From: a virus
Reading direction: 5' to 3' (one strand)
Virus record (IMG/VR): IMGVR_UViG_3300049460_000170
Coordinates: 1-23,102 of that record
Length of the DNA stretch: 23,102 nt
Part shown: positions 2,065 to 5,043 of the stretch, one piece after another
How the letters are laid out: the number at the start of each line of letters is the position of its first letter
Position numbering within the stretch: the first letter of the stretch is position 1
The notes under the pieces: model-generated
The model's input: the letters and a program-made list of their open reading frames with translations, nothing else
The model's database searches: none
Told to the model about the DNA's origin: nothing
Position numbers and translations under genes: made by a program

Positions 2065-2826
2065 ATGAGTGAAGTAGCAGACGACACCGTTGACGCGGAT
2101 CTGATCAATGATCAGCTCATCCTCGTCGCCGGCTTCTCGGGTGAAGGCAAGAGCGCATCGCTGCGCCACATCCGCAACCAGGAGAAGTGGATGTACCTGA
2201 ACTGCGAAGCGGGCAAGCGTCTGCCGTTTCGCAACCAGTTCCAGAACTTCCGTATCACGGACCCGTACCAGGTCCACGAAGCGTTCGACCATGCCACGTA
2301 CGAGGCAACCGACACGCAGGGCATCATCATCGATTCGTCCACGTTCCTGATGGACATGTTCGAGTCGAACTACGTGCTCAACTCGGCCAACACCATGCAG
2401 GCCTGGGGCGCCTATGCCCAGTTCTTCAAGGTGCTGATGCAGCAGAAGGTCACCACCTTCGGCAAGCCCGTCATCGTCATCGCCCACCTGCTGGACGTGC
2501 TCGATGAAAAGAGCGCCGAGATGCGCACGAGCGTGCCCGTGAAGGGTTCGCTGAAGAACAACGGCATCGAGGCGTACTTCTCGACTGTCGTGGCTGCCAA
2601 GAAGGTTGCCGTCAAGGAACTGGAGAAGTTCGGCAGCAAGATGCTGGTGATCACCGATGAGGAGCGTGAGCTGGGTTTCAAGCACGTGTTCCAGACGCGC
2701 ATCACCAAGCAGACCACGGGCTTTCGCATCCGCAGCCCGATGGGCATGTTCGACAAGTCCGAGACGTACATCGACAACGACTGTCAGGTCCTGCTGGACC
2801 ACCTCACCGAGTTCTACGGTAACTGA
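2065..2826 (+). CDS. RecA-like P-loop ATPase (AAA_24/Sak4 type)
   Basis: This 253-aa protein has a Walker A motif GFSGEGKS at residues 23-30 and a Walker B GIIID at 86-90, followed by a polar SST sensor-like segment. PVIVIAHLLDV further on resembles the sensor strand of RecA-fold ATPases. Length and layout fit phage AAA_24 ATPases, some of which (Sak4) work with SSB in single-strand annealing and recombination. The gene lies directly before the SSB gene, which supports such a role, and position matches N4 gp44. A purine-rich AGGAGAAGGA precedes the ATG. The exact activity (annealing, helicase loading or other) cannot be decided here. Confidence 0.78.
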   Translation: MSEVADDTVDADLINDQLILVAGFSGEGKSASLRHIRNQEKWMYLNCEAGKRLPFRNQFQNFRITDPYQVHEAFDHATYEATDTQGIIIDSSTFLMDMFESNYVLNSANTMQAWGAYAQFFKVLMQQKVTTFGKPVIVIAHLLDVLDEKSAEMRTSVPVKGSLKNNGIEAYFSTVVAAKKVAVKELEKFGSKMLVITDEERELGFKHVFQTRITKQTTGFRIRSPMGMFDKSETYIDNDCQVLLDHLTEFYGN

Positions 2827-2886: not shown

Positions 2887-3666
2887 ATGAGCCTGTTTGG
2901 AAACCTGAAGAGCGAAGGCCTCGAAGAAGCAACCGATCGTCTGGGTGGCGGCTTCGGCGCCATCGAGACGAACATCTACAGCGGCATCATCAAGGCACTC
3001 TACGCCGGCCAGTCGGCACAGGGCGCACGCAACGTGACGCTGATCACTGACTTCGGCGGCCGCGAGTACCGCGAGACGATCTACATCACGAACCGTGCCG
3101 GTGAGAACTGGTTCGCCGCCAAGGACAAGGACGGCAAGGCAACGGGCAAGAAGGCACCGCTGCCGGGCTTCACGCTCGTCGACGACATCTGCCTGATCGC
3201 CACGGGCAAGCCGCTCGCGGAACAGGAAGCCGAAGACAAGGTGGTCAAGGTCTACGACGCGGAAGCCCAGAAGGAGCTGCCGAAGTCGGTGCCGATGATC
3301 GTCGAGGCAATCGGCAAGCCGATTTCGCTGGCCATCCAGAAGACGCTCGAAAACAAGAGCGTCAAGGAAGGCGACGTGTACGTGCCGACGGCGGAAACGC
3401 GTGAAGTGAACAACTCCGAAAAGGCGTTCGACACCGACACGAAGATGAGCGTCGTCGAAGCCAAGGCGGGTGCCGAGAAGCCGGCCTTCTGGGATGCCTG
3501 GCTCGAAAAGAACAAGGGCAAGACGCGTGACAAGCGCACGTTGAAGGAAGGCGAAGCGGGTGCCGCCGGTGCGCCGCCCAAGGCACGTGCTGCAGGTTCG
3601 GCCACGCCCCCGGCTGCCAACCAGGCAGCACCGCGCAAGTCGCTGTTCGGCAAGCAGGCTGCGTAA
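2887..3666 (+). CDS. ssb: N4-type single-stranded DNA-binding protein and likely late-gene activator
   Basis: The protein has 259 aa, against about 265 for N4 SSB (gp45), and lies in the same place: after the ATPase and before the convergent vRNAP gene. Residues ~15-190 look like a compact beta-rich domain. Residues ~195-245 form a charged, Ala/Gly/Pro-rich linker, and the basic tip ends PRKSLFGKQAA. N4 SSB is needed for replication and recombination, and through residues at its C-terminus it activates host sigma70 RNA polymerase at late promoters. A similar motif, SLFGNLK, occurs at the N-terminus (residues 2-8). The Shine-Dalgarno is weak and purine-rich. The assignment rests on position, size and tail; I cannot run a profile search. 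Confidence 0.78.
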   Translation: MSLFGNLKSEGLEEATDRLGGGFGAIETNIYSGIIKALYAGQSAQGARNVTLITDFGGREYRETIYITNRAGENWFAAKDKDGKATGKKAPLPGFTLVDDICLIATGKPLAEQEAEDKVVKVYDAEAQKELPKSVPMIVEAIGKPISLAIQKTLENKSVKEGDVYVPTAETREVNNSEKAFDTDTKMSVVEAKAGAEKPAFWDAWLEKNKGKTRDKRTLKEGEAGAAGAPPKARAAGSATPPAANQAAPRKSLFGKQAA

Positions 3667-3670
3667 GGAG
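3665..3670 (+). promoter_or_regulatory. Ribosome binding site fixing a TTG start
   Basis: AAGGAG overlaps the TAA stop of the SSB gene and sits 7 bases before TTG at 3678. No ATG lies at suitable spacing, and the next ATG (3699) would cut off the strand that leads to the first catalytic aspartate. TTG is therefore the likely start of the resolvase gene. Confidence 0.75.
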
Positions 3671-3677
3671 CTGAACC

Positions 3678-4235
3678 TTGCGCATCCAGGTCGCAGGCAT
3701 GGACCCCTCAATGAGGCATTGGGGGTCCGCTGAAGCCACACTCGATATGGACTCGGGTGTACTTGACATCCCCGTGCTGTCCCTCTGTGAACCAGAGGAC
3801 ATCAAGGGCAAGCAGGTACGCCAGAACTCCAATGATCTCCACCTCGCCAAGGTGCTCTATGAATACGCCATGCCCATCGCCAGACGGGCCAAGGTGATCT
3901 TCGTAGAGGTTCCCGTTGGCTCGCAGTCGGCTGCCGGCATGAAGGCCTATGGCCTGTGCGTCGGTGTGCTGGGTGCATTACGGGCCGAGGGGCACGAGAT
4001 CATCGAGGTGACGGCCACCGAAGTGAAGCGCTGCTTCACGGGGGATCCGAATGCGACAAAGAAGCAGATGATCGCCCAGGGCGTGCAGGATTACCCGCAC
4101 GCCAACTGGCCCCGCCACAATGGCAGGGTCAGTGAATCGAAGGCCGAGCACTGTGCTGACGCCATTGCCGCCATCCATGCCGGGGTGAACACCCCGATGT
4201 TCCAGAATCTCGTGCGACTTTTCGCAAAGGTATAA
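3678..4235 (+). CDS. RuvC-like Holliday junction resolvase
   Basis: This 185-aa protein has the RNase H-fold resolvase motifs in order: Asp9 in GMDPS, Glu77 in FVEVP, and the C-terminal His158/Asp161 pair in AEHCADAIAAI. A basic ATKKQ segment (126-130) lies before the last motif, as in RuvC proteins. The His-x-x-Asp pair replaces the Asp-x-x-Asp of E. coli RuvC; Thermus thermophilus RuvC also uses His at that site, so the enzyme is probably active. It would resolve branched replication and recombination intermediates before packaging. The start is TTG with a strong Shine-Dalgarno, which may lower expression relative to SSB. The gene follows SSB by 11 bases, probably in one operon. Confidence 0.9.
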   Translation: MRIQVAGMDPSMRHWGSAEATLDMDSGVLDIPVLSLCEPEDIKGKQVRQNSNDLHLAKVLYEYAMPIARRAKVIFVEVPVGSQSAAGMKAYGLCVGVLGALRAEGHEIIEVTATEVKRCFTGDPNATKKQMIAQGVQDYPHANWPRHNGRVSESKAEHCADAIAAIHAGVNTPMFQNLVRLFAKV

Positions 4236-4242
4236 ACGCATC

Positions 4243-4722
4243 ATGCAGATCATCATCGTCCAGTCGGAAATCGAACAGGCCATCCGCAACCACATCAACA
4301 GCCTGTTGAATGTGAAGGACGGCAACCGCATCGAAATCACCCTGTCGGCTACACGCGGCGAAGACGGCTTCAAGGCCACCATCGACATCGTGGCGGCCGA
4401 TGAGCCGGCACCCGCTGGCGCCAAGTCGGACACGAAGGCGGAAACGGCTGTCACGGCTTCGCGCACGTCGGTGCAGGTGTCTCCGCCCTCTCTCACCACC
4501 ATCACCCAGGTGACGAAGAAAGACCTGGATCTGCCGTCGGATCCGGCACCGGCTGTCCTGGCTGACGTGACGGATGTCGAGGACACCAGCAAGGGTGCAG
4601 AACCCCCGGCCGATGCCGCACCGTCGTCGTCGGAACCGGTCCAGGCGGAAGCAGCCGGTGAAGTCAAGCCGGCCGGTCGCAGCCTGTTTGCCGGCCTGAA
4701 GAAGCCGGTGAACGCATCGTAA
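4243..4722 (+). CDS. Hypothetical protein with disordered acidic body and SLFxGLK tail
   Basis: I do not recognise a family for this 159-aa protein. Residues 1-52 look folded (alternating strands and helix, with IEQAIRNHINSLL). Residues ~53-140 are Ala/Pro/Asp/Glu/Ser/Thr-rich and probably disordered. The tip, RSLFAGLKKP at residues 146-155, closely resembles both ends of the SSB in the same operon (SLFGNLK at its start and RKSLFGK at its end). The start ATG lies 7 bases after the resolvase stop, with AAAGG upstream. A small folded head, flexible linker and short basic tip suggest a protein that docks onto a common partner; that role is inference. Confidence 0.7.
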   Translation: MQIIIVQSEIEQAIRNHINSLLNVKDGNRIEITLSATRGEDGFKATIDIVAADEPAPAGAKSDTKAETAVTASRTSVQVSPPSLTTITQVTKKDLDLPSDPAPAVLADVTDVEDTSKGAEPPADAAPSSSEPVQAEAAGEVKPAGRSLFAGLKKPVNAS

Positions 4723-4723
4723 G

Positions 4724-4918
4724 ATGAAACTGGGTGCGATCCTCACCATAGGGATCGTGATGATGGCGATCGTGATTGCCGTTACGGTCGCCATCATCGC
4801 TGCAGCACCCTACATGGCCATTGGCATCGTGATGCTGGTAGGCGGCTATGTAGCGCTTGCACTGGACAAGGAGGATGATCCCCCTCCTGGACCGCCTGGT
4901 CCGCCCACTGTGCAATAA
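4724..4918 (+). CDS. Small membrane protein with proline-rich tail
   Basis: The protein has 64 aa: two hydrophobic segments (about residues 4-29 and 31-48), then an acidic DKEDD and a PPPGPPGPP tail. ATG begins one base after the stop of the upstream gene and no clear Shine-Dalgarno is visible, so translation is probably coupled. It is the last gene before the bidirectional terminator. The topology could suit an inner-membrane protein involved in lysis or superinfection exclusion, but no family is recognised and the function is unknown. Confidence 0.6.
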   Translation: MKLGAILTIGIVMMAIVIAVTVAIIAAAPYMAIGIVMLVGGYVALALDKEDDPPPGPPGPPTVQ

Positions 4919-5002: not shown

Positions 5003-5036
5003 AAAAAACCCCCAGTTTCGGCTGGGGGTTTTTCTT
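5003..5036. terminator. Bidirectional intrinsic terminator between convergent blocks
   Basis: The arms CCCCCAG (5009-5015) and CTGGGGG (5022-5028) enclose the loop TTTCGG. An A-run (5003-5008) precedes the hairpin and a T-run (5029-5033, then more T to 5039) follows, so it works in both directions. It ends the rightward replication operon and the leftward vRNAP transcript, whose stop codon is at 5044-5046. Confidence 0.93.
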
Positions 5037-5043
5037 TTTGAAC

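Follow-up and report, generated by a model that had tools for sequence, protein, structure and literature searches.

The single-stranded DNA-binding protein and a resolvase-linked neighbor of N4-like phages share a co-varying C-terminal motif, a possible docking code

The single-stranded DNA-binding protein (SSB) encoded in a 23.1 kb virus record (the window, meaning here the whole stretch of DNA analyzed), a fragment of a Schitoviridae (N4-like) genome, and a nearby 159-aa homolog of N4 gp47 end in the same short motif, which is conserved at the C-termini of both families and co-varies between the two proteins within each phage. From comparative sequence analysis, we think it probable that the two tips share a docking motif for one pocket of a common partner, with gp47 acting as an adaptor for a Holliday-junction resolvase. 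More tentatively, the tips could constitute a family-wide docking code, in which the SSB and the resolvase adaptor present the same co-evolving C-terminal motif to one phage-encoded hub, so that an interchangeable tip might connect the coating of single-stranded DNA with the resolution of junctions and also, in N4, with the transcription of late genes by the host RNA polymerase, RusA-type resolvases being wired in by direct fusion.

The gene order of the window matches that of the N4 genes (Table 1). The SSB is homologous to N4-type SSBs over its full length (phrog_743, E 1e-78 over residues 1-256) and shares 47% identity with that of N4. AlphaFold2 (AF2) models, built from alignments that combined the window sequences with those of viral contigs, gave a confident core (residues 26-217, pLDDT above 90) with low-confidence ends, and the best Foldseek match was the OB-fold protein PrgE (probability 1.00 but E 4e-3), which is consistent with a predicted OB-fold core. 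Pfam searches with the SSB, gp47 and the fused resolvases described below returned nothing useful.

Table 1. Position of the relevant features in the window and at other loci carrying the gp47 module.
Feature	Position	Strand	Evidence or remark
Primase, partial		+	PriCT-1
Sak4-like ssDNA annealing ATPase	2065..2826	+	phrog_124 E 1e-43; upstream of SSB, same module
N4-type SSB (N4 gp45 homolog), 259 aa	2887..3666	+	phrog_743 E 1e-78
SSB N-terminal segment SLFGNLK, residues 2-8	2890..2910	+	conserved [LIM]FGN[LM], outside folded core
SSB C-terminal docking tip (putative) RKSLFGK, residues 250-256	3634..3654	+	equivalent of N4 K259-K265
RuvC-like Holliday-junction resolvase	3678..4235	+	phrog_159 E 1e-34; between both tip-bearing genes; proposed gp47 partner
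gp47-like protein, 159 aa	4243..4722	+	phrog_18842 E 5e-24; phrog_7641 (N4 gp47) E 3e-13
gp47 N-terminal domain, about residues 1-52	4243..4398	+	helix 7-21, strands 29-36, 43-50
gp47 linker, residues 53-145	4399..4677	+	without predicted structure (AF2)
gp47 C-terminal docking tip (putative) RSLFAGLKKP, residues 146-155	4678..4707	+
64-aa protein	4724-4918	+	directly 3' of gp47
Virion RNA polymerase (vRNAP), 3544 aa		-	running toward + strand genes
gp47 module fused behind RusA-like resolvase, other loci	L004:4849-5643; L143:3243-4085; L147:3349-4251; L150:3224-4342; L019:4190-4987		annotated resolvase or hypothetical

The N-terminal domain homology of the 159-aa protein and its place behind the resolvase gene assign it to the gp47 family (phrog_18842, phrog_7641, phrog_33948), whose members are listed as of unknown function, fused forms being annotated as RusA-like resolvases. 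In its AF2 model a small helix-strand-strand domain, for which no PDB match was found (best E 0.8), is joined through a long linker to a tip at which confidence rises slightly (72-79). Both the SSB and the gp47 tips thus lie on tails predicted to be disordered and appear to be held on flexible tethers, as is typical of short docking motifs. An earlier note on this DNA had pointed to a motif of the SLF type at three protein ends, and all three are readable in the window: the SSB begins with MSLFGNLK and ends with APRKSLFGKQAA (C-terminal RKSLFGKQAA), and the 159-aa protein ends with AGRSLFAGLKKPVNAS, its tip being GRSLFAGLKKPVNAS. Additional copies of the lineage motif were observed inside the linkers of some gp47 proteins (L151:4444-5196, L146:4609-5289, L150:3224-4342, L006:5308-6114), examples being PSLFDT, PSLFPE, DIFDQ and DLFEG in MS02 and RKSLFAPK in a Delftia phage, a pattern that suggests multivalency.

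To follow the motif across the family, SSB homologs were collected from 452 matching phage records, named phages being read with their annotation, and from 164 viral-contig loci obtained by protein scans; the search for gp47 used a profile built on the N-terminal domain, so that the tip itself played no part in it. The pattern [ST][LIMV]F was present within the last 12 residues of 117 of 128 SSBs (one per cluster at 85% core identity), compared with a mean of 0.6 in shuffled tails, and within the last 22 residues of 94/105 gp47 domains, compared with a mean of 1.0. Under the relaxed pattern [LIMVFP]F these numbers rose to 127/128 and 103/105, whereas just 13 of 368 other long ORFs at the same loci carried the motif, and a scan of ten named phage genomes located it at the extreme C-terminus mainly in the SSB and gp47. 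In an alignment of 40 gp47 sequences, no column was invariant except those of L and F in the tip. The consensus of the motif is [KR]-x-S-L-F-x-x. At five loci with enough downstream sequence (L195, L221, L222, L225, L228), no tip-bearing gp47 candidate was found with this approach.

Conservation of the motif in homologs of both proteins, which the earlier note had proposed as a check, is therefore borne out at the two C-termini, more strongly than had been claimed, but its third copy, at the N-terminus of the SSB, did not behave as part of the same system. Of 50 SSBs, 45 keep F4 and 37 keep L7, and the main clade retains [LIM]FGN[LM] at this end. This conservation does not extend to the serine as a motif position, and the segment does not vary together with the gp47 tip (z 0.5, p 0.31). 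We consequently treat the N-terminal SLFGNLK as a separate feature.

A protein of roseophages similar to N4 gp2 was considered as a general third tip carrier and rejected because its counterparts in other lineages have different C-terminal ends. In Ruegeria phage V12 (L135:1187-1597) the protein ends with DLDSLFG, making it a possible third carrier there. The gp2 ends of other lineages are conserved but unlike the motif, e.g. SNPFARKLF or, in N4, ENKYARKLTF, and may themselves be docking tips.

In the N4 reference record (NC_008720, L002:1679-2113) gp47 ends with KKRLKNQYKPNLLCLQV, while PSLFAGLKR, the tip, is encoded in a different frame. Since gp47 of two close relatives of N4, OLB145 (L102) and AlfredRasser (L313), reads into the tip in frame, programmed frameshifting was discarded in favor of the simpler explanation that the N4 record carries a mutation or a sequence error. 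The frame difference may partly explain why the likeness of the two tips went unnoticed.

The gp47 module is tied to Holliday-junction resolvases, a link absent from the earlier note. Of the 105 gp47 domains, 26 form the rear part of a fusion with a RusA-like resolvase, and all 26 heads match RusA in PHROGs. The other 79 are encoded by separate genes, which lie behind a resolvase gene of the RuvC-like type in 62 instances and of the RusA-like type in 9, nearly always within about 40 nt. Because the type of resolvase varies while the gp47 module stays constant, we infer that gp47 acts as a resolvase adaptor.

The SSB and gp47 tips of individual phages resemble each other (Table 2). To quantify this, tip pairs from the same genome were compared with permuted pairs, leaving out the LF anchor. 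Same-genome tips were more alike than permuted ones (z 9.2, n = 103; z 6.3, n = 55; z 5.0, n = 18; permutation p≤5e-5) in a sample in which related phages are not independent, and they remained so among phages whose SSB cores are less than 45% identical (z about 4.5, n = 14; p≤5e-5). Partial Mantel tests controlling for SSB-core distance, a control that is itself partial, gave r values of 0.22-0.51 (p 5e-4, and 0.036 at n = 7). The co-variation was present separately in the residues before LF and in those after F. Tests on named phages agreed, but were not blind: some distant gp47 genes had been identified from their position while their ends were already visible, and the FBKp27 anchor was placed manually. 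Several of the genes identified in this way also served as seeds for the profile-based test.

Table 2. C-terminal tips of the SSB and of gp47 encoded by the same phage.
Phage	SSB tip	gp47 tip
Window	RKSLFGKQAA	GRSLFAGLKKP
KP8	KKSLFGKK	KPSLFANLKR
Axy04	RPSLFGKK	RPSLFGNL
HN02	RPSLFKKS	RPSLFAGLNK
Pollock	TKSLFAK	TKSLFARN
ZC08	RKSMFKKD	AKSIFGNK
Littlefix	TASLFS	GGSLFS
V12	KSSLFDD	KSSIFDVD
CB4	QSDLFL	VLDLFS
FBKp27	GDDPFTL	EDDPFANFD
Presley	KRQFFKR	RKTVFGKR

Over evolution, changes in one tip have gone along with changes in the other, and the two therefore probably fit the same socket. The idea of the earlier note that a tip common to the SSB and its neighbor, behind a disordered linker, has a common partner gains from its family-wide occurrence, which makes such a partner likely. 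In the explanation we favor, the SSB and gp47 would carry one short motif at the ends of flexible tails and both tips would dock into a single pocket of the common partner. The N-terminal domain of gp47 would work with a Holliday-junction resolvase, or be covalently fused to it, and the gp47 tip would bring the resolvase to the docking place of the SSB tip, single-stranded DNA coating and junction cutting being handed over, or competing, during replication-coupled recombination. The pocket would most likely be part of a phage protein evolving along with the tips, be it one of replication/recombination or the core of the SSB, and in N4 the SSB tip would additionally contact the beta-prime subunit of the host RNA polymerase for late transcription. 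A phage-encoded pocket is the likelier one because the tips drift by phage lineage and yet match within each phage.

If the pocket were the SSB core, each SSB tip would fold back or engage a neighboring SSB, and gp47 would dock on SSB-coated DNA by imitating that tip, thereby bringing the resolvase to SSB filaments. Such an arrangement is one version of the favored explanation, and a pocket in an adjacent gene would be expected to co-evolve with both tips and to drift by phage lineage; the tails of other SSBs, such as those of E. coli SSB and T7 gp2.5, are known to fold back on their own core. On the other hand, the AF2 monomer gave no confident docking of the SSB tip on its own core, and we regard this version as rather unlikely.

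Host beta-prime is the sole published partner of the N4 tip, and it could be the common partner, with gp47 as a second late-transcription factor, co-activator or competitor, that uses the activating tip of the SSB. The connection of the N4 SSB C-terminus with host RNA polymerase proved stronger than the earlier note had claimed. The N4 SSB ends with AKSLFGKK, whose SLFGKK is the equivalent of SLFGK in the window, and its KSLFGKK holds S260, K264 and K265, the activating region needed for late transcription by E. coli RNA polymerase (Miller et al. 1997, as cited in PMC2784036). N4SSB contacts the conserved C-terminal region of beta-prime (PMC4496689), and the gp47 tips of the N4 group are basic as well. 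The SLFGKQAA of the window keeps the serine and the first lysine of this activating tip, the second lysine being replaced by Q.

As the common target of both tips, however, host RNA polymerase, which the earlier note had put forward, fits poorly. KP8 and FBKp27 both grow on K. pneumoniae, but their tips are SLFGKK/SLFANLKR and DDPFTL/DDPFANFD, respectively, and those of three P. aeruginosa phages (Pae575P-3, KPP21, ZC08) differ too, whereas beta-prime hardly varies: region 1218-1373 of E. coli is identical at 153/156 positions to that of Klebsiella indica, and at 113/156 to that of Pseudomonas fulva. Moreover, outside the N4 group many tips lack the lysines, as already noted for roseophage SSB tips (PMC2784036), and gp47 is tied to resolvases, with no obvious place in transcription. 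We therefore consider beta-prime alone an unlikely common partner; different lineages could use different host partners. A phage replication protein, the alternative offered by the earlier note, would fit better than host RNA polymerase.

We find it improbable that the tips are sliding-clamp-binding motifs of the QL[SD]LF type, directed to the host beta clamp. The x-[SD]-L-F portion equals the last three positions of the clamp motif, and the SSB tip of Pectobacterium phage CB4, GQSDLFL (L021:3450-4214), fits the full consensus Qx[SD]LF, but where the clamp motif has Gln, four residues before F, SSBs mostly have R/K/T and gp47 mostly K/R/A, with R and G, respectively, in the window. In addition, the pocket of the beta clamp is conserved among bacteria, so lineage-specific co-drift of its ligands is not expected.

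Chance or local DNA copying, by which low-complexity tails of neighboring genes would come to look alike through drift or gene conversion, is scarcely credible: identical SLF codons in both tips are somewhat enriched (10/83 genomes, 5.4 expected), but the shuffle controls and the co-variation between deep lineages speak against it, and the codon family of the motif serine (TCN or AGY) is the same in both tips in 43/83 genomes compared with 40.5 expected, which rules out gene conversion between the SSB and gp47 tips. In the window the serine is encoded by TCG in the SSB and by AGC in gp47. As these codon families match only at chance level, the likeness of the tips has been kept by selection on the protein.

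A single tail type on two phage proteins is already known from T7, where two different proteins, one of them the SSB, also have like C-terminal tails. The C-terminal tail of the T7 SSB, gp2.5, binds the gp5 DNA polymerase. The acidic tails of gp4 bind basic patches of gp5 (PMC12593628). The T7 tails are acidic and belong to the SSB and the helicase, whereas the tips described here are mostly basic, have a strict S-L-F core and are found on a second carrier linked to resolvases. The bacterial SSB-Ct (...DDDIPF) is likewise a flexible SSB tail with a Phe-anchored docking tip, and the DDPF tips of FBKp27 look similar to it, but most tips here are basic, have residues after F and are also carried by a second protein; the window tips, RKSLFGKQAA and GRSLFAGLKKPVNAS, are basic and show neither the acidic stretch nor the C-terminal Pro-Phe of SSB-Ct. 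The N4 SSB tip has been published solely as an RNA-polymerase contact, and no description of gp47 as a second tip carrier, or of lineage-wise co-variation, was found in the open-library literature.

The presence of a tip described as transcription-activating on a second, resolvase-linked protein with which it co-varies makes a wider role of the N4 SSB tip testable, and provides a hypothesis of function for gp47, of unknown function throughout Schitoviridae. It also raises the possibility that replication, recombination and late transcription are physically connected in these phages. If the partner is shared, a short peptide of the SSB tip and one of the gp47 tip from a single phage should both recover the same protein.

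The 64-aa product encoded downstream of gp47 is hydrophobic with a proline-rich tail and is probably a membrane protein; small ORFs of similar size sit after gp47 in several relatives. Between the convergent gp47 operon and the vRNAP gene, at positions 5005-5040, a G+C-rich hairpin is followed by a T-run (CCCCCAGTTTCGGCTGGGGGTTTTTC), which by eye looks like a terminator.
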